From the NCBI GenBank assembly GCA_002900995.3, contig CM035307.1:496001-560000 (forward strand): DNA of 64,000 nt. Direction: 5' to 3'. Shown here piece after piece: positions 1 to 50,416 of this stretch. Both the position numbers and the translations under genes were made by a program. Within the stretch, counting starts at the first letter, position 1. Every line of letters starts with the position of its first letter. The notes under the pieces are model-generated. The model did not search any database. It was not told where the DNA came from and saw only the letters and a list, made by a program, of their open reading frames with translations. The DNA is from Ganoderma boninense (taxonomy: Eukaryota > Basidiomycota > Agaricomycetes > Polyporales > Polyporaceae).

Positions 1-1
1 T

Positions 2-1436
2 AGTCTCGAAGGCCCGTCATCCTCGGATGCGTCGATGGAGGGTCGGCTGCAATACCTGGAAGGCCTGAACGGCCGGGTGGAATACCTTCACATGCTCCGC
101 CGTGCAAAGGAACTGGTTTGTTGCTTCCTATCGCGCTTGTTAAATTGTTTGGTTAAAACGGAACCTTTGCGCCTCAGCTCGCGGGCGGGAATAGCAGCAC
201 GGATCGTCCAGTGGCCAAGTGGGCGACGTGGAGCTACACGCCCGGCCATCTTCCCCGTGATCTCCACGAAGACGTCGCCAGTTGGAACGCAACCTTGCAA
301 TGGCTTGAGGGCGAACAGTCGTCGCATGCACGCGCGGGTGATGTGCAGGCTTATTGCATTGCCATGGGTCTGGCGTTGAGGGATCTCAGCATCATCATGC
401 AGTTCGAACCGGACACCGACATTGATCCTCATCTGCCAACGTACTTCCAGAGCACTTTGCTTGCTGGAGATGCATGGACAATTGATCGGTTGGTAAACGC
501 CTGCAGCATTCAATTCCGGTCACCTAATGGCGATCGTGATGCTGGTGACATCGCACCCGCCGCTCATATCGTACCGGCGTCTCAGATCGCACCTGCAGCT
601 CAGATCGCACCCGCCTCTCAGATCGTGCCCAATGACTCCCAATCCAATCAGGGTGGCGTCGAAAGTCGGGAGCAGTCATCTTCCGTGCCCTGGTCCACGT
701 ATCGAAGCCCGTCAGAGGTTTCCCAGGACGTGGACACGCGACTTGTGTTTTTGCGAGATCTTTGTGACCAGACACCGTTCCAGGAGATGATAAACCGTGT
801 AGCTCCGAAGGTACGTCGACACAACCCGGGGAATGTAGGCCACTCACAGATGTTGCCACTGTTCATCACCAGATTGTGCATCCCTTACATATCCGTCAGA
901 AAGGCGATTTCAGGTGGGCCATGTGGGCACAGAAATCTCCACACCTGCCCGTCGCTCTTCACACGGCAGCTCCTAGGGTGCACCAGCTATTCTCCTACCT
1001 GTCGGAGGGACCTGGGAAGGACCCGTCCGAAGAGGAGATTCAAAGGTTTTGTCTGGTAATGGGCATGACTCTCCGTGACCTGGAGATCCTACTCGACCTG
1101 CCTCCTCCCGAGTCACACCCGACAGATCTCCCGACATGCTTTAAGAAGTCAAAATTGTTCAAGTCGCCTAACGACATCGAGAAGGTCCTCCGGTTTTGCC
1201 AGGTCCAGTTTCTCCCTCCTCCGGCCCCTCGTCCACTGCTCAAGGCCCCGGGTGCCACGACCGCCAGACGTTCGGGTGGAATGGACTGGTCGAACACCGT
1301 CAGCAACGTTCCTCTCAAGCGTGTTCTCAGTCCGGGTGTGGTCGACACCAGTGCCAAAGACGCGGGTGGTGGAGAGGTACCGAGCGGAAGCCAGCCTAAA
1401 AGATCAAAGAGGCTGGCTAGCCGGGTCAAGGCATAG
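2..1436 (+). CDS. Protein with duplicated ~98-residue module (5' partial)
   Basis: Runs off the left edge; about 427 residues are visible. I read three exons, 2-115, 178-810 and 900-1436, all joined in phase 0 (introns of 62 and 89 nt, donors GTTTGT and GTACGT). The protein is an internal duplication. A module beginning at Trp53 (WATWSYTPGHLP) returns at Trp255 (WAMWAQKSPHLP), VQAYCIAMGLALRDL is matched by IQRFCLVMGMTLRDL, both copies contain LPT-x-F, and both end C-x-(I/V)-Q-F. Between them lies a linker of degenerate IAPA/IVPA repeats, and the C-terminus is basic (PKRSKRLASRVKA), which could be a nuclear signal. I do not recognise the module and assign no function. The next gene is convergent, its stop 109 bp away. 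Exon choice is inferred from frame and splice signals. Confidence 0.6.
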
Positions 1437-1544
1437 GCGATTTCGAACGGCCGTTGTAATGTGTTCAGGATTCAGTACTGGTATCCTATCGTACATGTTA
1501 TAGCTGCTGACGTGGATGCAATGAGTAGGCAAATATTATCACGT

Positions 1545-2548
1545 TCATTCCTCGACATCTACAGGGCACCCGACCAGGCCCTTCATGTACTTCTGCACGA
1601 AGTAGACAAACGCCGGAGTCTTGTGAGTGAACGCGACTACCTTGATGCCGGTTGCGTATCCCGCGGCGATGTCTGCGTCACGCCTGTGAAGTAAACCTGA
1701 GAATCATGGAAGCGGTGCATGTAATGATGATTCTGGTACCTCGATTTATACACCCCCGGATGTTCACCTCTGATGACTGCCCAAGCGACGACGTTGTCTT
1801 CGTGGACAACTTCTCGCTCGCGGCCAGCTGTCGTCGAACCGCTCCACACGGTTGTATCCCAGGACGACATGGGAGGCGTCCCGACCGTGCCCCAGGTGGC
1901 TGTGTCCCCAGTCATGCCGGATACGGCAGACATGGACGGGGGACCGTGCTGTGAAGTGGCCACGAAGAAAGTGGCATCACCTTGTTCCACCATGCTCTCC
2001 CAAATGCGCTTGGCCCGCTCATTCGCCGCCCGGTCTTGGACGATGGGAATGGAAGGCGGAGTGTTGAGCTGGGCGCGGATGTCGGAGAGATCTCCCCCGA
2101 AGGTGGCATGCTGGTCGTAAGCGAGGTCCTCCGCCTTGTAGTTCCCTTCGGAGATGTCCGGCCTAGCGACACCGGGAGTGGGAAGCGCCGCACGGGGGCG
2201 GGGAAGGGTCCAAACAGCTCGCAGGAATGTGGGCCCCCGACGGAAGGCTTCCTGTGCGGATTGCAGGTTTCGACACCCGACGTATGCCGCGCCCTCAAAA
2301 GAGAACACCATGGCGTTAGCCAGGCGCCTGTCAAGTATTGTAGCGAATGCAGATCACTTGGTTGTATACCGAACTCACATTCCGTAGAACAGCCCGATCG
2401 CACGACCATGCCATACGACGTACACCTTGCCCTCACGACCGGCATTACCGAAAGGGATGACAAGACCGTCCGCGTCATAACGCGGGGTGGGGCCAAGAGA
2501 CCGGGCGGTCGCGTCGAGAGTGTCTAGAAGTAGCTGCGTGACTGGCAT
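1545..2548 (-). CDS. Protein with two RNase H1 N-terminal (viroplasmin-like) domains
   Basis: Predicted 294 residues from exons 2548-2379, 2327-1752 and 1683-1545 (introns 51 and 68 nt). The first exon starts at an ATG and leads into a YVVWHGRAIGLFYGM segment. Splicing joins it to a part ending FEGAAYVGCRNLQSAQEAF, together matching the fold pattern of the RNase H1 N-terminal hybrid-binding domain (YVV-x2-G-R ... G-A ... A-x2-F). A second, more diverged copy sits at the C-terminus (WAVIRGEHPGV, then VVAFTHKTPAFVYF). No RNase H catalytic domain with its acidic residues is present, so nucleic-acid binding rather than cleavage is the reasonable guess. The middle (about residues 75-220) is Ser/Thr/Gly-rich and probably disordered. 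The second intron's acceptor is the least certain part of the model. Confidence 0.6.
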
Positions 2549-2936
2549 TGGTAGTGGGGATACAGAATGGGTGGAAGGGAAAGTGTCCGGGTGTGAGTTT
2601 ATATCAGGTCACCACCCGGTCTCAGACATAAGACGATTATTTGTCATGCAAGACTGGATGTTCGAACCTTCCCTGTCGTGTTCCGGATCCTTTGGCGTGA
2701 GACCAGGGTATAAGGGGAATGCACGAAACAGAACGTCCGTTTGTTCATTGGGAACAATAGATTCTGGATAGTTACACGTGCTCATATGAAGGCGGTTGAC
2801 GCCTGAGAACCTCGCGGGTGTAGTATTACAAGCAGCGGAGGCAGTTGAATGCCAGAAGGACTGCGTGGCAAGAAAAATTGTCATGGGATGATGAAGGAAG
2901 ACAGGAACGGGGATGTGATGCTGAGAAGCGATATGT

Positions 2937-5900
2937 CTACGACGGGTGTGGGAGAGACGGAGGTGCGGAAGATGCGCGTAACAAGGTGGAGAATCTCCCC
3001 ATTTCCTGAAGTGAGGATGTGGAAAGTCCAAGGCGCTCCAGATACTGTGCAAAGATCTCACCAGACTCGTGCCGCTTCAGTTCCTGCTCCAGGCGCTTGA
3101 CATCCGCCTCCAACGTGCCCAACCTAGACGTCACGCCGGACAGAGTCTGCAAGACCTGTGTCGGCGTAGGGACTGCGGGACCAATGCCCAAGGGGGCGTT
3201 GGGAGTCAGAAGGGGAGCAACGGTGGGCTCCAGATCGGGGGCACTGAGGGTGTGGAGAACCTCCATCATGGCATCCCCTTCTTCCCCGGAGATGGTGCCG
3301 CCTTCCCGGGTGATTTCCGCGGCGGCCGAAAGAGCGTCCGCGAGCTGCTCGGGAGTACCCTGCTGGGCGGCGATGACTTTATGTGGCAAGCGTTCAAGGT
3401 CTGGCAACATGGCCCGCATTTCCCGCCGCAAGTCGTTCGCGAGGCTTTGCAAACGCTCGTCGATGTCCTCGGACGCCGGAGCTGCCCTGTTCACGACGTC
3501 GCGAACGCGACTCCATTCGTTTCCGCAGTTCGCATAGAGGTCTTGCAACATGCGGGTGAAGACAAGAATGTCTTCGATGGGAATGGGCGTGTGGGGTGAT
3601 CGCTGAAGCAGGTTTGATACCCGAATGAAGACATTCGAGACGTCGCGGAACAGGGTACCGATGACCACCATGTCGCATGTCAGCTGGGTGAGACTGGTGT
3701 GAAGAAGGTCGAGTTTGTCGTTGACAGACGCTGTGGGTTGGAAGTCGTAGCGATCCTCAGTGGAACGGGTGGCAATCATGCAGTACATGCCGTCGATGTT
3801 GACGCGAAGCTCGTCGATAGCCTTGAAGACTTCAGCACCTTCGGGTGTCTGAGACGTTTCCCTGTGCGGCTGCCCGGGACCAGGTGTCACTGATTTCTCG
3901 CTCCCGGCACCGGTTCCATCCCCTGGAGCGTCTCGGTGACGCTTGAGGGTCAGGAGGTCTGGTTTGTTGTTAGTGGTTGACACAGCCGCCGAAAAATACT
4001 ACGAACCGTCAAAGGGTGACAACCTCATCAGAGATGCTCGCCGTCGCATGGCCTTTCCAGCGCTCTGGCCCTTGTTGCTGGACTTCGGCGTGCTCAAATC
4101 ATCGGGAACAGATAGCAGTTGTTCACTGGGAACCGGGGTGCCAGGGACTGGCTCGACTGCTAAAGTAGCAAGAAGGTTGATTTCATGCAGCAGCCCGGGT
4201 GACGGTGAGAGCGTGATTAAATGTCGCATATGATGGGACTCGTTACCAGGTAAGTCAATCATCCCCGACTGGACGTCGGGGTCATAGTCTGCATGGTCCT
4301 CCGCATCGTCGTTGGCACCCGAGCTACAAGGGCAGGAAGTACCGGCAATTCAGTGAGCGAAAAGTTGCCTCAGGACAATTGCGCTTACCGATCGGCGCTT
4401 TCTCTTTTGTCCCCTTCATCCGGACTGGCCTCTTCATCACTCAGGACAACACCCGCCCGACGTCGCTTCCGACGATGGACACGCAGGTCCTGCGCAGCGA
4501 CGACAACATCAGCCTCCGCACCCCACAACTGAACGGGACTCGGGGATCGGCGTCGCTTTCTCACACGACGAGGAGGACCCACCTTCGTCATGGGCACGGA
4601 GGTCGCACGGGGATTGACACCTCCATCCTGGTCACCAGTACTGGGACGCTGCGGAATAGGGTGTCTCAAGGGAGGGACCAGGATGTAAGCCCTGTTGCGA
4701 CGTACCTGCCCAGCTCCCGATGCCTTTGAAACTGATGAGCGAGAGCCCGAGGGCAGAGACTGGGCCTTAGGTTTTTTGCTGGCACGGGTGTTGACGGCCC
4801 GCGGTGGCGGCACTTCCACGACGGCTTCCGGATCGCTCTCAACCATGGGTTTCTTTGCCCTGCTAGTCGACGCCCGTGGCTTCGAGACCTCGATGATGGC
4901 ATCCGGATCGCTGTCGACGTGCTTCTTCTTCCCCTTCCCGACCTTCTTCTTGTCGATGGGGACGTCGAGAGGCATGTCGTCGTCGGTATACGGATCCTCC
5001 GGGTTACCAAGATGTGCGAAAAAGGGGACATGAAGGTTGTGAGCGGTGGGGATCCCACAAGGATCACGGGTCTCATTGGGAGCAGGTGGCGCCTTGCTCC
5101 TGTGCAGACGCTGGTAGATCCGTAGGAACCAAGCCGGAACTTGTTTCTGTTTCATGATCTCTGTCGGTCGTGGATGGGGACCGGGGTGCAAGTCGGGACG
5201 GCAGATCTGCTTCCACCACCGCCAAGCTAGGTAGCAGGAGCCAGGGCCTTGTCCCTTGCGATGTCCTGTGCAGTTCGAACATGCCGTGTGCGCCTTATTG
5301 CAGGCGTAACAGGTCGACGTGTACAGAGGGGCAATGAAGCACGGCTTGCCAGCCGCACGGCACGATTCACAGCTGAGAGGCTGCGTGACGGAGGACTCAG
5401 CGTACATATCAGTCAGAGGGTCCGTGTTAACTTACATGTTCGTACCAGGCGAAAGAGATCTCCTCCGGCGGGAACTGTTCCTCCGGCGGGCGGTTATTGG
5501 GGCCTGTCGACTTGGGGCCTCGGGATTGAGCCTTCGACGCCTTGCGTGGTTTTGCGCTGTTGTCCGCGGATGCCTTCGACTTCGTCGTGGTTTTCTTCCG
5601 TTTGTCCTCATCGATGATGTCGTTGTCGTCACCCACCTCCGGTTCGCTATCGTCATCAGGGTCATCCTCGGCATCGGCGTCGGCGTTCTCATCCACTTCG
5701 TCGTCGCCGTCCAGTACATCCTCTTCGTCCGGCTCACCGTCGGCGTCGGCGTCGGCGTCGGCGTCTGGGGTGGGGGAGGGTGTCGTTTGGCTGTTCGGTT
5801 CACCGGGTGCGGCTATCGGTGACACATGCTCTTCATCCGGGCTTCCCTCGTGTTCCTTGGCCGTTGCCACCCTGGGGTGCTGACGTGCAATGGGTTTGTC

Positions 5901-7006
5901 GCTCTTGGAAGATGAAGAAACGGCCGGCCGTCGCACTGTCCCAGACGCGGTCGTACGTCCGTCGGCTTTCTGCCCTGCCGGTGGAGTGGGGACTGATGGA
6001 CTGGATTTCGACGTGACTCCCGCGGTTGGCTGTGGCTAGGAAGGTGGTGGGGATTCAGACGACGCTCCGTCCGAAGCCATCGCGAAGAAAGGGACTCACC
6101 TTTGCAACTTTACGCGGGAGTGGCCGCGTCACACGTTCAGCAGGTCCCTCAACCTCTGCGGGGCGGTTCGCCCCAACCGCGGGGGCTTGCGTAACGTCAC
6201 CGCTGCCCGACTTCGACCGCTTGATAGTGGAATCTGGACCAGGAGATGGGGACTTCGAGGCTTTGCGCTTCCGCTCAACATCCCCATTGCCGTCAGCCAT
6301 TTCGCCGTCCAGTTGATCCACCTCCTCCGGCAGAGTACCTGGCTCGGAGGGCGTAGCCGCGAGCGGTACCCACTGGGACCCCGTGGCGTGGATAGGGGCT
6401 TGGACGAGAGTGGTCGTTACATTGCTGCCCGTTGCAACCGGCGTCGCAAGACGAGGAGTCGCCCCCAACACAGCGGACGCTGATTCGGCGATCGATTGTT
6501 GATTTGTGACAAAGGGCGTACCGGCGGTCCGTGTGCTCGGGGATGCTTCAATTGGTTAGATCACGTACAAAAGAGACGGGGGATTGTTACTCACCTGTCC
6601 ACCAATCCAGGTTTATGGTGTTCCTCGGAAGGAGTGGGAAGCGAGAACCATCGAAGTCTGCGTCGATGCCCAAGGCAAATTGTGGATCGACGAGAGCCGG
6701 GTGGTTACGGGTGACTGGGTGGAGCTGCGAGAAATCGAAGGGGGTACTGTTTCTTGCGCGAATATTGTGGAGGAAGAGCGCGCAGATGGTCAGTGGCGGA
6801 AGAGCCGGTGGGGGATCGAGTTCTTCGCCCAGCAACTTCGCCAGGCGGTTCACCTTTTTCGCGATTGCTTTCTCCCATGTGGCGCGCAGAGGGTCGCTTG
6901 GCCCGGGCTGGTCTTGGTATGCATATTCGACTTGAGAGACGGAGGAGCGAAGGACTGCACGTTTGTCGGTGCCTCCAGGCACACCGGACGCCATGGCCAC
7001 AGACAT
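2937..7006 (-). CDS. Large protein with Zn2Cys6-spaced cysteine cluster
   Basis: Six exons join without frame conflict into 1260 residues: 7006-6595, 6545-6100, 6029-5436, 5380-4389, 4323-4007 and 3958-2937. Introns are 48-70 nt with GT...AG ends. The order of regions is an N-terminal part with a basic helix-rich segment, an Asp/Glu-rich stretch around residues 350-400, a cysteine cluster at C488-x2-C-x6-C-x9-C-x2-C-x6-C518 (the spacing of fungal Zn2Cys6 domains, with an extra C521), basic low-complexity sequence with RRVRKRRRS, and a C-terminal part with a coiled coil near residues 1195-1220. That suggests a nuclear, DNA-associated protein. The cluster lies mid-protein and is poor in the basic residues usual between Cys2 and Cys3, so it may not be a classic regulator. 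Further 5' exons are possible. The next gene upstream is divergent. Confidence 0.55.
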
Positions 7007-7601
7007 AAGGCGGGGGCGATGGGTTGGGACGAAGAGGGATGGTGGAAACGAGCAAGTCTTCAAGTTCGTATCGATGAATGAACTCGTGGTGAACACGTGG
7101 TCGGATGCGCGTGGTCGGATGTTCGTTGGTGTGCGGATGCCGAAAACATCGGGTGCATGTTTGGCCCCAAAAGCATCGGATGTGTCAGCCAATGCTGTCA
7201 TCATTATACCACCGCGGGAGCTTTTTGGCACGTTGACTTTCTGTTTTGGTGGACGATATCGCTTAGATCCGAGGAGTGGACTTCACCCTTCACCACATCC
7301 ACAGAGTGCTGCGGCAAGCTCGAGCGACCTTGGTAGCATTGCGAAAAATAGGTATGCTGTCACTCATGGTGCAACGTACCACTCGATGACATTAACGGGT
7401 CGGAAAGCCCACATCCGGCTCTTGCCAGTCATAGGACACAAAGGTACGTGGGCTTTGATGGGAGGATTTCGACGATGCAGTCGGTTGAACGCCTTGTACA
7501 CTGGCGGTGCCGTCCTGGGCGATGAGGACATGTTCATATGGGACGGAGAGGGAGTTATCGACTGATCGTCCATAAGTCCTGTGCATTACTGACCGTCAGG
7601 C
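7007..7601. other. Divergent intergenic region with two exon-like repeat units
   Basis: Lies between the starts of two divergent genes and probably holds both promoters. I found no clear TATA box. Two segments look like further members of the downstream micro-exon series: 7267-7332 (66 nt, read as DPRSGLHPSP...SSSDLG, donor GTAGCA) and 7408-7443 (36 nt, ending before donor GTACGT). Both are multiples of three and phase 1. A continuous route from them into the array was not found, so they may be decayed units. Confidence 0.3.
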
Positions 7602-9734
7602 ATGTTAGCACTGGGACTTGATATGACACCCGTATTTGATAAGTCGCCAGCTTCGGATGAAAGTATGGCACCTTTCTCTCTCGCCGTTGTACGTTGAAAC
7701 ACTGAAAAGTCACTGCACAAATGTCAAGCTACACCCGTACAGTTTCTTCCGAACCGTAACATCAAGCATGCTGTCCTTCAGGACTCAGATGATGGTAAAC
7801 AATCACTTATCCATTACTGCGGCATTGTCGCTGATCAAGACTTGCAGATGACTTAGCAGCCCCAATCGTCTTCCGGTCAGCATGCAGCTCAGAGGCGGCT
7901 GGTTTGGCAACCATGCCTTCCGGTGCGGTTTCCTTGATGTCACGATGCATCATGGAGCGATCTGCTCATGGGTGATTTAGCTCCCGTCTACACGCCAACC
8001 CGGGACAGCAGCCACCAGCATAGTGACGACTCGGAAGAAGGTTGTTACTTCTGAACAGTTCCGATGTAATCGTCATGACAAACGCGTACCGCAGAACTCG
8101 CCCCGCCTGTAGCATTTAGGATGAAGCAAGAAGAAGGTCCAAGCACGGATGACATCTCGGATGATGGTAAGTGCCCCTGCATACGCCCCGAAAAGCCGAT
8201 GCCTACCTGCACCCCAGAACGCATAGCACCACCGCTCCAATTCCATGAATCGGCGGTAGTGTATCCTAATGTGAAGTACGAAACGGATGATGGTATTGAC
8301 GCATTATCCTGAAACCTTAGCTTTGACATTGACTCGAATCCTAGTCGCGATAGCAGCACCCGTCAATTATCGGGTGACAAAGGACGTCGACAGGGTCATG
8401 GATACCGATTCCGATGACGGTATTTACTCCCTTTGATTGGCTAATCAACGTGCAACTAAACTTGGTCGGAAGAACCACTCGCCATGGTCCCATCTTTGAT
8501 GCGCCAGAGGGACGCTCATCATAAGCACGAATCCCATCATAACGGTATTTTTCTTCGTTTTCGCATTATGCCCGGGATTAACATTGCTTCCAGAGACAGC
8601 TCTACAACACGATGACGCAATGGTCTTGGATTCTGATAATGGTAATCAATCTGTATTTTGTGTGGACATGAATGTTCATTCCTATATAGAGGTCATTGCG
8701 GCGCCTGTGTGCTTCCGGGAGGCCGAACCAGGCAACTCTATGCTGGTGGACAGTTCCGACGAAGGTAAAGACTTTTAACAACGTCTATTGGGCGCAGCAA
8801 TGGCTTGATATCTCGCTGTAGAGACACTTGCAGCACCCGTGACATTTACATCATCCAGAGCCAAGATGGTGAAGGAGGAGGCGGAATGGGCCGAAGGTAT
8901 AGCACAGACTGGCAAATCTGCTGTATTGTAGGATCCTAAACATGTACTGCAGACAAATATGGAGGGCGCATGCTACTCAAACATGCTTCCGCTATTGCAC
9001 AAGCAGCTACGGCGGCGCCTAGGAATCGCATGCAAGATGATGACTTATTTGAATTCTTCACACCCGGTACGGGATGCCTTCTCACCCGACAGAGCCACAT
9101 CCATTCAATATTTGCTTTACCAGCAGGGTTTGCCGAGCCTTCGCCGACCGACCCCAACAGACCGACCCCGGCTGTGGGAACACACGGGTCACAATCGTCA
9201 CCTCAGTTTGCATCCGCATCTGCACCGCTGCGAAACAATCAAACAAGGTCGGATTGCGGGACGTCGCCGATATCATTCCCCTTCACCCCATCTCGACTTC
9301 GAGCGACGATCTGTGCCTTGAATACGGTCGCAGCGACCATGGCAGTCAATGAGTCGGATATCGAAAAGCAGGTCGATAAGGTAGCATGCGGTTTCCACTA
9401 CTGTGATCAAATAGGAAATGCTCACATTGTGGAGGAAACAAAGCGCAGGGAAAATGTTGCGTACGATGACAGGGCGGCCAATGGGAATGCAGTACTGCAG
9501 AAGGCCTACACAGCCTTGCAAGAGTATTCAGCATTGAATTTGCAGGCCATGAAAACATTAACAGAGGAGAACACTGCATTAGCACAAGCGGAACGACAGG
9601 TTCACGACACAGGGCTTGGGGAACTGGTAGGTACAACGTCAAGCAACCACTTGAAAAAATACAACGAGGCTCTGTTGTTGGCTGGAGAGAAGGAGGTCCT
9701 GCGCAAGTTGTGGGTGAAGTTGCAAAGGACGTAA
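7602..9734 (+). CDS. Gene built from eleven repeated symmetric micro-exons plus a coiled-coil exon
   Basis: Twelve exons give 508 residues: 7602-7662, 7729-7794, 7857-7922, 7981-8040, 8095-8166, 8218-8292, 8345-8419, 8473-8544, 8594-8641, 8690-8764, 8822-8896 and 8953-9734. Every junction is phase 1, each internal exon is 48-75 nt and divisible by three, and introns are 48-66 nt. Most short exons encode variants of one peptide: E-x-(I/L)-A-(A/P)-P-V-x-(F/Y) near the start, and an acidic D-S-D-(D/N/E)-G whose last codon spans the donor (GATGATG then GTA). The last exon encodes a Pro/Ser-rich part, then a helical C-terminus (EKQVDKVACGF, LQEYSALNLQAMKTLTEEN). Any exon could be skipped without a frame change. 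No signal peptide or known domain was seen. The start ATG and a few weak sites (acceptor GTCAAG at 7728, donor GTTGTT at 8041) are uncertain. Confidence 0.6.
7609..8952 (+). repeat. Tandem exon-intron repeat units, 96-132 bp period
   Basis: Successive exon starts from 7729 to 8953 are 128, 124, 114, 123, 127, 128, 121, 96, 132 and 131 bp apart. The units are diverged at DNA level and are recognised mainly by the encoded A-A-P-V and D-S-D-D-G motifs and the shared exon phase. This fits old unequal crossing-over within one exon-intron unit, followed by strong divergence. Confidence 0.6.
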
Positions 9735-9799
9735 ATATATTATATGAGAGCAAACACACTGCGTCACCGAATATAGCATTGAGTTACCTGGGGTGATGT

Positions 9800-11780
9800 A
9801 TGGCAGGAGGACAAGTCGGGGAACACGTCGCTTTCGAAGTTAGGGACGACAAGGCGGGGGGTGGTGGCCGGCCGGGTGCGGCATGCCCACCACTGCTGGC
9901 CGGCCGGCTGCCCATGGTTAAAATCTGCAAAAATGAAACCATGTGCTCGGAGCGCGCAGGGGGATGGGAACACGTCGCTCACAAAGTTGCGCCGCCGAGC
10001 GGGCCCGGGATCGTGGGGGACGACAAGTCGGGGGGTCGTGGCCGGCCGGGTGCGGCATGCCCACCACTGCTGGCCGGCCGGCTGCCCATGGTTAAAATCT
10101 GCAAAAGCCAAAAGAGGTAGTCAGAGTGTGCAGGGGGACGGGAACACGTCGCTCACGAAGTTGTGCCGCCGAGCGGGCCCGGGATCGTGGGGGACGACAA
10201 GTCGGGGGGTCGTGGCCGGCCGGGTGCGGCATGCCCACCACTGCTGGCCGGCCGGCTGCCCATGGTTAAAATCTGCAAAAATGAAACCATGTGCTCGGAG
10301 CGCGCAGGGGGAGGGAACACGTCGCTCACAAAGTTGCGCCGCCGAGCGGGCCCCGGGATCGTGGGGGACGACAAGTCGGGGGGTCGTGGCCGGCGGGTGC
10401 GGCATGCCCACCACTGCTGGCGGCCGCTGCCCATGGTTAAAATCTGCAAAAATGAAACCATGTGCTCGGAGCGCGCAGGGGGAATGGGAACACGTCGCTC
10501 ACAAAGTTGCGCCGCCGAGCGGCCCGGGATCGTGGGGGACGACAATCGGGGGTCGGGCCGGCCGGGTGCGTGGCATGCCCACCACTGCTGGCCGGCCGGC
10601 TGCCATGGTTAAAATCTGCAAAAATGAAACCATGTGCTCGGAGCGCGCAGGGGGATGGGAACACGTCGCTCACAAAGTTGCGCGCCGAGCGGGCCCGGGA
10701 TCGTGGGGGACGACAAGTCGGGGTCGTGGGCCGGCCGGGTGCGGCATGGCCCACCACTGCTGGCCGGCCGTCTGCCCATGGGTTAAAATCTGCAAAAAAA
10801 TGAAACCATGTGCTCGGAGCGCGCAGGGGGATGGGAACACGTCGCTCAGCAAAGTTGCGCCGCCGAGCGGGCCCGGGATCGTGGGGGACGACAAGTCGGG
10901 GGGTCGTGGCCGGCCGGGTGCGGCATGCCCACCACTGCTGGCCGGCCGGCTGCCCATGGTTAAAAATCTGCAAAAATGAAAACCATGTGCTCGGAGCGCG
11001 CAGGGGGATGGGAACACGTTCCTCAACAAAGTTGCGCCGGCCGAGCGGCCCGGGAATCGTGGGGGACGACAAGTCGGGGGGTCGTGGCCGGCCGGTGCGA
11101 TGCCCACCACTGCTGCCGGCCGGCTGCCCCATGGTTAAAATCTGCAAAAGCCAAAAGAGGTAGTCAGAGTGTGCAGGGGGACGGGAACACGTCGCTCACG
11201 AAGTTGTGCCGCCGAGCGTGCCCGGGATCGTGGGGACGACAAGTCGGCGGGGTCGTGACCGGCCGGGTGCGGCATGCCACCACTGCTGGCCGGCCGGCTG
11301 CCCATGGTTAAAATCTGCAAAAATGAAACCATGTTGCTCGGAGCGCGCAGGGGGATGGGAACACGTCGCTCACAAAGTTGCGCCGCCGACGTCGGCCCGG
11401 GATCGTGGGGGACGACAAGTCGGGGTCGTGGCCGGCCGGGTGCGGCATGCCCACCACTGCTGGACCGGCCGGCTGCCCATGTCGTTAAAATCTGCCAAAA
11501 TGAAACCATGTGCTCGGAGCGCGCAGGGGGATGGGAACACGTCGCTCAACAAAGTTGCGCCGCCGAGCGGGCCCGGATCGTGGGCGGACGACAAGTCGGG
11601 GGGTCGTGGCCGGCCGGGTGCGGCATGCCCACCACTGCTGGCCGGCTGGCTACCCATGGTTAAAATCTGCAAAAATGAAACCATGTGCTCGGAGCGCGCA
11701 GGGGGATGGGAATACGTCGCTCACGAAGTTGCGCCGCCCAGCGGGCCCGGGATCGTGAGGGACGACAAATCTGTGGGTGG
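9800..11780. repeat. 174-bp tandem satellite, about 11 copies
   Basis: The landmark GACGACAA recurs near 9844, 10018, 10193, 10367, 10538, 10709, 10888, 11065, 11236, 11411, 11587 and 11761, giving spacings of 171-179 bp (mostly 174-175). The unit is very G+C rich and contains GGCCGGCCGG and CCCATGGTTAAAATCTGC blocks. A variant segment (CAAAAGAGGTAGTCAGAG) occurs only near 10110 and 11150, six units apart, so there is higher-order structure. Copies differ mostly by single-base indels in G or C runs. Because 174 is divisible by three, long open frames appear on both strands, but the indels shift them between copies, so I do not call a gene here. Confidence 0.93.
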
Positions 11781-12065
11781 CAGGGGTTTATGCCCACCTG
11801 CCACCCCTATGCACCCTCCTGACAGCGCGCACGAGCACGTAGCCCATGCCAGATACAACTCCGCGTAGCATTCAATGCTACCTAGTTCGACCCTCGACAC
11901 AACCAGTCCTTTTACTCTCTACACTTATACCCCCCCCCCGCCCTGCATCCGGCCGGGTGCTACCTTGCTGTACCCCACCCTCTCCGGCCGGGACCGGGTG
12001 GCAAGCACTTAGGCCGTCTTGTCACCCCCGGGTCGGAAGCAGTTCTTATATACACCGGGTGAAGC

Positions 12066-12308
12066 ATGTGGACAGTTTCGCTGATGGACCTCGGATTCTC
12101 CACGCACGGGTTCCACGTCGGCGCGCGGCTGGTGTTCATGGACGCAACCATCTCGAACAACGGCAAGACGTTGTCGTTCGTCACGCCGCCCTCCGGGCGA
12201 GTGTACCCGCCTGGGCCTGCGACGATATTCTTGACGATTGACAACGTGACCAGCGAGGGAGCCATGGTCATGATGGGTAGCGGGAACTCACCGCCGACCC
12301 TCGAATGA
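12066..12308 (+). pseudogene. Copper radical oxidase C-terminal domain fragment (glyoxal/galactose oxidase type)
   Basis: An 80-residue open frame matches the C-terminal immunoglobulin-like domain (DUF1929) of glyoxal/galactose oxidases. It has [15 protein letters not shown], a PP-x7[11 protein letters not shown] core, and the ending [11 protein letters not shown]. In the full enzymes this domain follows a seven-bladed propeller and carries one copper-ligand His, which would be the His in FSTH. The propeller is absent: an in-frame TGA lies just upstream at 12060, and beyond ~250 bp of non-coding sequence is the satellite array. This is a stranded 3' end, not a working gene. Loss by rearrangement at the satellite edge is my inference. 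Confidence 0.75.
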
Positions 12309-50343: not shown

Positions 50344-50416
50344 TTCCCATTAGCCGACTCGAACGACTGACCTCGTCATTACTAGTGACGCGCTCTACCA
50401 ACTGAGCTAAACGGGA
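50344..50416 (-). tRNA. tRNA-Thr (anticodon AGT)
   Basis: A 73-nt cloverleaf without intron. The acceptor stem is TCCCGTT/AATGGGA with one G-T pair, the D arm is GCTC-AGTTGGTA-GAGC, the anticodon stem is CGTCA/TGACG with loop CTAGTAA (anticodon AGT, reading ACU and, as inosine, ACC/ACA), the variable loop is AGGTC, and the T arm is AGTCG-TTCGAGT-CGGCT. The discriminator base is A. A TTTT run for RNA polymerase III termination lies about 20 bp downstream on the minus strand. Confidence 0.95.

Follow-up and report, generated by a model that had tools for sequence, protein, structure and literature searches.

A row of short, symmetric exons in the genome of the fungus Ganoderma boninense raises the question of whether it belongs to a host gene that makes protein variants or to a gene of another kind. 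The row lies on the plus strand at positions 7602-9734 of a stretch of 64,000 nucleotides (nt) (assembly GCA_002900995.3, contig CM035307.1, positions 496,001 to 560,000), here called the window and numbered from its first letter; positions on the same contig outside the window are given as C4 coordinates, and other contigs are named likewise. Our analysis suggests that the predicted gene, here named gene B, is carried as an accessory gene by a transposon of the TET+ Kyakuja type, within the KDZ group (reportedly named in a 2014 paper). We assign a probability of roughly 0.6 to this reading, including the roles proposed below for gene B and its divergent neighbor, gene A, at the ends of the element.

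To place gene B, we consider the DNA that surrounds it. An element of 22,254 base pairs (bp), running from C4:485817 to window position 12070, has gene B as its right-end gene, transcribed away from gene A. Inside it, on the minus strand (stretch L039), are a KDZ transposase domain (PF18758, E = 5.2e-26), a CxC2 cluster (PF18803, E = 1.6e-24) and a Tet_JBP domain (PF12851, E = 1.1e-12), all three between two inverted satellites. The element starts with CA at C4:485817, and its 5'-CA..TG-3' ends are flanked on both sides by exact copies of the 7-bp duplication GACAGTT (left copy at L079 311-317), which stand about 25-29 bp outside two long inverted blocks; the outermost 25-29 bp of the element are themselves not inverted. 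These ends were the single match, with no mismatch, in a screen of 160 x 100 placings in which CA and TG were required and one mismatch was allowed. Our analysis shows that gene B, as predicted, is not a free-standing host gene and is instead part of a KDZ/TET DNA transposon. By its domains, its 7-bp duplication and its CA..TG ends, this element is probably of the TET+ Kyakuja type.

Spliced by hand, gene B has 13 predicted exons and an open frame of 492 amino acids (aa; Table 1). Its ten internal exons 2-11 are 48-75 nt long, every length being divisible by three, and its 12 predicted introns (48-66 nt) are all in phase 1. An earlier note on this DNA had counted eleven exons, all in phase 1 and all short multiples of three; the phase and the short multiples of three hold in our model, which has 13 exons, including an exon 12 of 114 nt. 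The same note had proposed that exons can be skipped without loss of frame, which is true of each of exons 2-12 dropped singly (11/11 skips keep the frame to the stop); by contrast, the frame stays open in three of the 12 single-intron retentions. The coiled coil that it had placed in the final exon was not established, as AlphaFold without an alignment gave helices at a mean predicted local distance difference test score (pLDDT) of 47. Aspartate and glutamate together make up 16-22% of the B proteins of this gene and of the two paralogues described below.

Table 1. Positions in the window of the transposon portion, its predicted genes A and B, and its right-end features.
Feature	Positions	Strand	Remarks
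Element portion in window	1..12070	.	remainder is C4:485817-496000
Open frame, perhaps C-terminal part of gene A	2937..3998	-	judged from position and strand
Gene A cysteine cluster	5279..5371	-	C-x2-C-x6-C-x9-C-x2-C-x6-C; spacing class at 21/21 A loci
Gene A N-terminal conserved domain	6590..6994	-	135 aa; 21 genome matches, E <= 10
Gene B exon 1	7602..7662	+	61 nt; ends in phase 1; contains TPVF; ATG chosen in the earlier note, 5' end uncertain
Gene B exon 2	7729..7794	+	66 nt; TTPVQF...DSDD
Gene B exon 3	7848..7922	+	75 nt; LAAPIVF; alternative donor would end exon at 7901
Gene B exon 4	7981..8040	+	60 nt; APVYTP...DDSEE; weak donor, GTTGTT
Gene B exon 5	8095..8166	+	72 nt; LAPPVAF...ISDD
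Gene B exon 6	8218..8292	+	75 nt; IAPPLQF...ETDD
Gene B exon 7	8345..8419	+	75 nt; IAAPVNY...DSDD
Gene B exon 8	8473..8544	+	72 nt; off-theme; acceptor AAG
Gene B exon 9	8594..8641	+	48 nt; QHDDAMVLDSDN; by eye resembles exon 7 of both paralogues
Gene B exon 10	8690..8764	+	75 nt; IAAPVCF...SSDE; chain search puts end at 8752
Gene B exon 11	8822..8896	+	75 nt; LAAPVTF
Gene B exon 12	8953..9066	+	114 nt
Gene B last exon	9124..9734	+	611 nt; final 45 aa common to both paralogues
GC-rich satellite, 174-bp unit	9843..11768	+	11.1 copies; 3' of B
20 CCGGCCGG palindromes	9868..11991	.	18 paired, 28-35 bp apart start to start
Right subterminal block	11184..12044	.	inverted match to C4:485842-486694, 93.7% over 867 aligned positions
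Right target-site duplication copy, GACAGTT	12071..12077	+	element ends ..TG at 12070

Beside the hand-chosen exon model, we searched mechanically, in each phase, for the longest run of exons that could be chained in phase. At window 7602-9734 this search returned 11 exons at phase 1 and three each at phases 0 and 2, and its exons were those of the hand model, save that exon 10 was shorter. The best chain elsewhere in the window had seven exons at phase 1 and eight at any phase, and among 1000 first-order Markov sequences derived from the gene B stretch, the top two reached a chain of six. By the chain search and its Markov controls, the tandem array of symmetric phase-1 exons that the earlier note had described at this place is present in the sequence and exceeds chance. 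It should be noted that a stricter search (GT[AG] donors, YAG acceptors) did not recover the array, which breaks up because the donor of exon 4 is GTT and the acceptor of exon 8 is AAG. GC content is lower in the intron than in the flanking exons for 25 of the 27 introns of the three B genes.

The units had also been said to repeat one theme, opening with A-A-P-V-x-F and closing with an acidic D-S-D-D-G. A pattern of the first kind, P-[VIL]-x-[FYLVI], stands at one offset from the exon start in seven of the window's exons 2-11 and is absent from exons 4, 8, 9 and 12, so that the theme holds for most units and not for all. When exons 2-12 of the window gene are taken together with exons 2-8 of each paralogue, the motif occurs in 15 of 25 exons (within-exon shuffle mean 0.37, maximum 4 in 5000), and the last five places of these exons hold 50 acidic residues, against 27.6 after shuffling (maximum 42). 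Acidic exon ends are accordingly common in the array, without being found in every exon. A genome search with the pattern GCNCCNGTNNNNTTY (417/436 matches vs 444/450 in the control) was uninformative.

Two further arrays occur in the same genome, one on C1 (L026) and one on C5 (L062), both shorter and both in phase 1. The C1 array was found through an exon-start pattern together with the chain search, and the C5 array through its gene A match. Since the exon-start pattern has 29 places in the genome vs 31 in the control, most of its places are due to chance; the array members among them are four exons of the window gene and one of C1, five in total, and a chain search of wider stretches around 14 others found no further array. 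Hand splicing gives the C1 gene 8 exons, 7 introns and 245 aa, and the C5 gene 9 exons, 8 introns and 261 aa, with phase 1 in all of these introns and thus in 27/27 across the three hand-built models. Both paralogues have a GC-AG intron after exon 2, and the alignment score between the C-terminal 45 aa of the window gene product and each of them was reached by 0/5000 shuffles for each pair. Short internal exons number ten in the window gene and six and seven in the paralogues; this difference in unit number supports a history, read from the predicted models, in which array units were gained and lost over evolution.

Gene A is encoded on the strand opposite to gene B, divergently, and the two starts lie about 600 bp apart. 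Among the 21 genome matches of its N-terminal domain (19 at E <= 0.16), only three are close relatives, those on C4, C1 and C5, and micro-exon arrays were seen solely beside these; at the other 18 A loci, the longest phase-1 chain in the 1.5 kilobases (kb) of the divergent side was five, which is the background level. A cysteine cluster of the form C-x2-C-x6-C-x9-C-x2-C-x6/7-C is present on the A strand at 21/21 loci and on the other strand at 0/21. The spacing of Zn2Cys6 clusters is C-x2-C-x6-C-x5-12-C-x2-C-x6-8-C, and the predicted gene A product has a Zn2Cys6-like cysteine spacing, to which our claim is confined. A distant A used as query found two relatives in other public data, and no match was found in plasmid records (blastn) or in viral contigs (scan with A). 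The A domain was modeled by AlphaFold with three sequences at a mean pLDDT of 56, which, like the value for the last exon of B, is too low for comparing folds.

The association of gene A with the other genes of the element recurs across the genome. Here and below, counts of KDZ places are among the matches listed, of which there were at least 158, merged into 97 places by hand where pieces belonged to the same gene. A KDZ place lies on the same strand, 9.8-19.1 kb downstream, at 17 of the 21 A genes (0.022 expected per A), and none lies within 25 kb upstream (0/21). At each of these 17 loci a Tet_JBP match stands between A and KDZ, that of C1 being below the Pfam cut-off. Counted from the other side, Tet_JBP matches number 30, of which 17 are accompanied by an A gene; above the cut-off, the figures are 22 and 16. 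The A neighbors of the two paralogues likewise have KDZ and TET matches downstream, and the 17 A genes so accompanied mostly have B-type sequence on their divergent side.

This B-type sequence forms a wider family. The motif V-R-[FIL]-x-[ST]-P is found on the divergent side at 17 of the 21 A loci, with no occurrence on the opposite strand or in reversed sequence, and C1 and C5 are among these loci, with the motif in exon 2. The C-terminal stretch of one distant B gene has 15 genome matches (E <= 10); ten of the 12 at E <= 0.06 are divergent from an A gene and within 2.1 kb of it (compared by hand), the remaining two lying at C7:1075624 and, where a contig ends, at C4:4596690. In B-type genes beside distant A genes, a PIVGEAD-PPSP-type repeat lies in one open frame at L053 (C10), L048 (C6) and L054 (C1), where a VVGE-like pattern has 14, 10 and 10 matches, respectively, on one strand and 0 on the other within 1.5 kb. 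Two side observations concern this family: the B-type C-terminus at C7:1075624-1075977 lies beyond the KDZ gene (C7:1079236), away from gene A (C7:1089772), and, in the divergent flank of A (L044-L061), the single-copy [KR]-x-V-R-F-x-[ST]-P often has S/T-P sites after it.

We consider with fair confidence that the array is a multiplied V-R-F-x-[S/T]-P exon, because a similar motif stands close to the start of its unit and the phase agrees wherever it was read. The array would have arisen by tandem duplication of one phase-1 exon that is single in other B genes, after which the exon copy number would have drifted to the ten, six and seven units of the present genes.

The DNA 3' of gene B carries the satellite and the palindromes listed in Table 1, and the opposite end of the element (C4:486238-487136) carries an inverted satellite of this type, so that a repeated motif, made of CCGGCCGG pairs and satellites, is found near both ends. 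Taken singly, CCGGCCGG occurs 1239 times in 55.6 megabases of genome vs 1108 for the control. Pairs of it 28-36 bp apart were found 3' of B at eight of nine loci examined among the 21 A loci (the seven loci first examined and C1:4385411, one of two more), and, on C4, C1 and C8, also on the far side of the KDZ gene, at the opposite end of the element. No such pair was found in 16 other genome stretches (L024-L040 without L026; L039 lies inside the same element). At four loci the pair lies within a satellite of 166-188 bp, and at three others no tandem repeat was found; the satellite units of C4, C5 and C1 have only short stretches in common. A pattern with a spacing of 32 bp was merged by hand into 61 places, 22 of which fall in the stretches around the 21 A loci (1.13% of the genome); 17 of these 22 come from the repeats of the C4 and C5 arrays. 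At C6:2786007-2786400 the spacer that separates the paired sites in the C1 satellite is found again, with no A match near, perhaps as a remnant end, and a second patch with the C5 satellite spacer lies at C5:3487186-3487387, about 20 kb from the first.

Two further observations were made in the window. Inside the element, window 157-1436 (+) holds open frames in which a segment is seemingly duplicated (YCIAMGLALRDLSIIMQF / FCLVMGMTLRDLEILLDL, by eye), and window 160-1056 (+) had no Pfam match. The sole tRNA detected by ARAGORN in the window is a tRNA-Thr (agt) at 50344-50416 (-).

With less confidence, and by analogy, we propose that A binds the paired CGG palindromes at the element ends and that B may be a multivalent adaptor. 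B would be a mainly disordered, acidic partner of A, whose short hydrophobic-plus-acidic motifs would give many weak contacts, and it would recruit either transposase or TET dioxygenase to the two ends of the element, much as TnpA serves the subterminal repeats of En/Spm in plants. Frame-neutral exons would let the number of contacts change while leaving the protein unbroken. A more specific form of this proposal, rather unlikely in its entirety and offered tentatively, is a three-part recognition of the ends, in which A would read paired CCGGCCGG sites about three helical turns apart, B would be the adaptor, and the element's own TET would be drawn to the CpG-rich ends and keep them unmethylated; the number of contacts made by B would then be set by the number of mini-exons and tuned by splicing or by duplication of symmetric exons.

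Several observations weigh against reading gene B as an accessory gene of a TET+ Kyakuja-type element. The inverted blocks start some 25-29 bp in from the ends, whereas Kyakuja elements are described without terminal inverted repeats. Four of the 21 A genes (C1:252883, C4:279113 and two on C16) have no same-strand KDZ and TET; for the two on C16, the downstream KDZ match is encoded on the other strand. Moreover, an A gene is absent from about 80 of the 97 KDZ places. For the piece of gene A that contains the cysteines, Pfam returned no zinc-cluster family at E <= 1, and because Pfam does not recognize the cluster we limit the claim to its spacing. As for the paired sites, C3 has two CCGGCCGG 154 bp apart and no close pair, and the 32-bp-spacing pattern, with 43 and 45 strand matches genome-wide vs 38 and 39 in the reversed control, does not exceed chance overall. 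The link between the two kinds of B gene is also affected: window B has no V-R-F-x-S-P match, the C-termini of distant B and micro-exon B have no significant likeness (lowest of nine p = 0.024), and a profile of three distant B C-termini ranked shuffled sequences first and did not find window B. With regard to the exon models, many donors are weak, three AAG-type acceptors occur in the window gene or C1, and YTNAY branch motifs are present in 19 of the 27 introns of the three B genes vs 14.9 by shuffle, with no clear enrichment. Finally, exon DNA similarity between C1 and C5 is hardly above intron DNA similarity, and because their exons are about as diverged as their introns, purifying selection is unproven.

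Other explanations of the array have to be set beside these points. A host gene making variants by micro-exon skipping might have been taken up by a transposon or have come to adjoin one by chance, and the 11/11 frame-keeping skips and the different unit numbers of the paralogues would fit such a gene; we consider this improbable, given that gene B lies within the two ends of the element and its 7-bp duplication and that, at 17 of the 21 A loci, gene A comes together with matches to KDZ and TET. Decay is a different possibility, in which an old coding repeat would have been split by mutations that mimic introns, and weak donors, AAG acceptors and three off-theme exons among exons 2-11 could be taken as its traces. 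A pseudogene of this kind would nevertheless have to retain 492 aa of open frame and internal exons in multiples of three, none of the 1000 Markov sequences approaches the gene B chain, and the two paralogues have a similar layout, in which the position of the GC-AG intron is common to C1 and C5; this makes decay very improbable indeed.

The remaining alternatives concern what A and B would do. B could be an acidic activator array, such that A binds DNA and B co-activates the genes of the element, with no direct part in transposition or demethylation. Its acidic, hydrophobic-spotted repeats agree with this, as do the starts of A and B about 600 bp apart on opposite strands, an arrangement that makes a shared promoter likely. 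However, the stretch that separates A from B in the window is free of CCGGCCGG, the pairs being 3' of B, and pairs also stand beyond the KDZ gene at the other end wherever this was seen (C4, C1, C8), and we regard a role restricted to activation as unlikely. RVxF is the docking motif of protein phosphatase 1 (PP1), which we take the single-copy [KR]-x-V-R-F-x-[ST]-P of B-type genes to resemble, and B might therefore recruit a host phosphatase or another partner through this motif, which is present at 17 of 21 loci, and in many of these a basic residue precedes V by two or three positions. This docking function is quite improbable, as the micro-exon units (A-A-P-V-x-F) carry no basic residue and several distant copies have I or L instead of F. 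The hydrophobic-acidic repeats might also be read as candidate SUMO-interaction motifs.

We know of no account of how a TET enzyme would be aimed at such an element. If gene B is an accessory gene of the transposon, a recurring A/B pair together with a paired DNA site at the ends would be a concrete and testable answer. In addition, exon duplication seems to be the route by which one branch of B genes multiplied a short motif, and other branches did so within one open frame (10-14 PIVGEAD-like copies at L048, L053 and L054), so that both routes can be compared in one genome.

Searches of a protein database found nothing at E <= 10 for the whole of B (7994 candidates sharing most words scored) or for its last exon (211 candidates), and Pfam gave one match to B, far below the cut-off. 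No description of the A/B pair, the micro-exon gene or the paired palindromes was found in the titles and abstracts of the literature searched, which consisted mostly of papers outside subscription. The earlier note knew of no described fungal counterpart of the array, and none was seen in that literature. The element belongs to a known kind; the A/B pair, the micro-exon gene and the paired sites are what is apparently undescribed.

The papers compared below are cited from portions of their text. A Trichoderma study describes functional microexons as previously undescribed in filamentous fungi, its own case being one microexon in a regulator gene rather than an array (PMC11121469). In the micro-exon genes (MEGs) of schistosomes, introns span 0.1-5 kb and exons 6-81 bp, mostly 15 bp, an N-terminal signal peptide is encoded, and 35 genes give rise to at least 87 proteins (PMC10526429). 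The resemblance to these genes drawn in the earlier note extends to the row of short exons, mostly multiples of three; in contrast, gene B has introns of 48-66 nt and exons 2-11 of 48-75 nt, is transposon-borne, and, like both paralogues, has no signal peptide evident by eye at the N-terminus of its protein. We therefore rejected the schistosome type for gene B, the long introns of 0.1-5 kb being absent (PMC10526429). The nearest structural likeness found is with the bicycle genes of aphids, which have about 17 exons on average, with many small internal ones of which nearly all start at codon position 2 (phase 1), and whose structure outlasts sequence similarity (PMC9168663). In contrast to gene B, these are insect effector genes (PMC9168663); exon phase alone is no ground for membership, and we claim no relation.

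In function, the proposed end roles are closest to those of En/Spm (CACTA), in which transposition depends on TnpA, a protein that binds the subterminal repeats, these repeats vary in sequence between families, and methylation may hinder TnpA binding (PMC2613891). The likeness lies in an element-encoded accessory protein and subterminal repeats, and the tnpA transcript has 11 exons; the transposase, however, is of another class, no sequence relation is apparent, and binding by A or B is proposed by analogy (PMC2613891). TET+ elements of the KDZ group are known from mushroom-forming fungi of several orders, where the TET enzymes they encode are believed to aid escape from methylation-based silencing (PMC12730594). 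Those of the Kyakuja type are described with 7-bp duplications, CA..TG ends and no terminal inverted repeats (PMC12730594; Kojima, 2025). Differences from the window element concern its inverted subterminal blocks and satellite, the words "subterminal" and "tandem repeat" having 0 occurrences in the main text of that paper, and its A/B pair and micro-exon gene, neither of which is mentioned in the portion cited here (PMC12730594). What the two have in common is the KDZ transposase, the TET/JBP gene, the 7-bp target-site duplication and the 5'-CA..TG-3' ends (PMC12730594).

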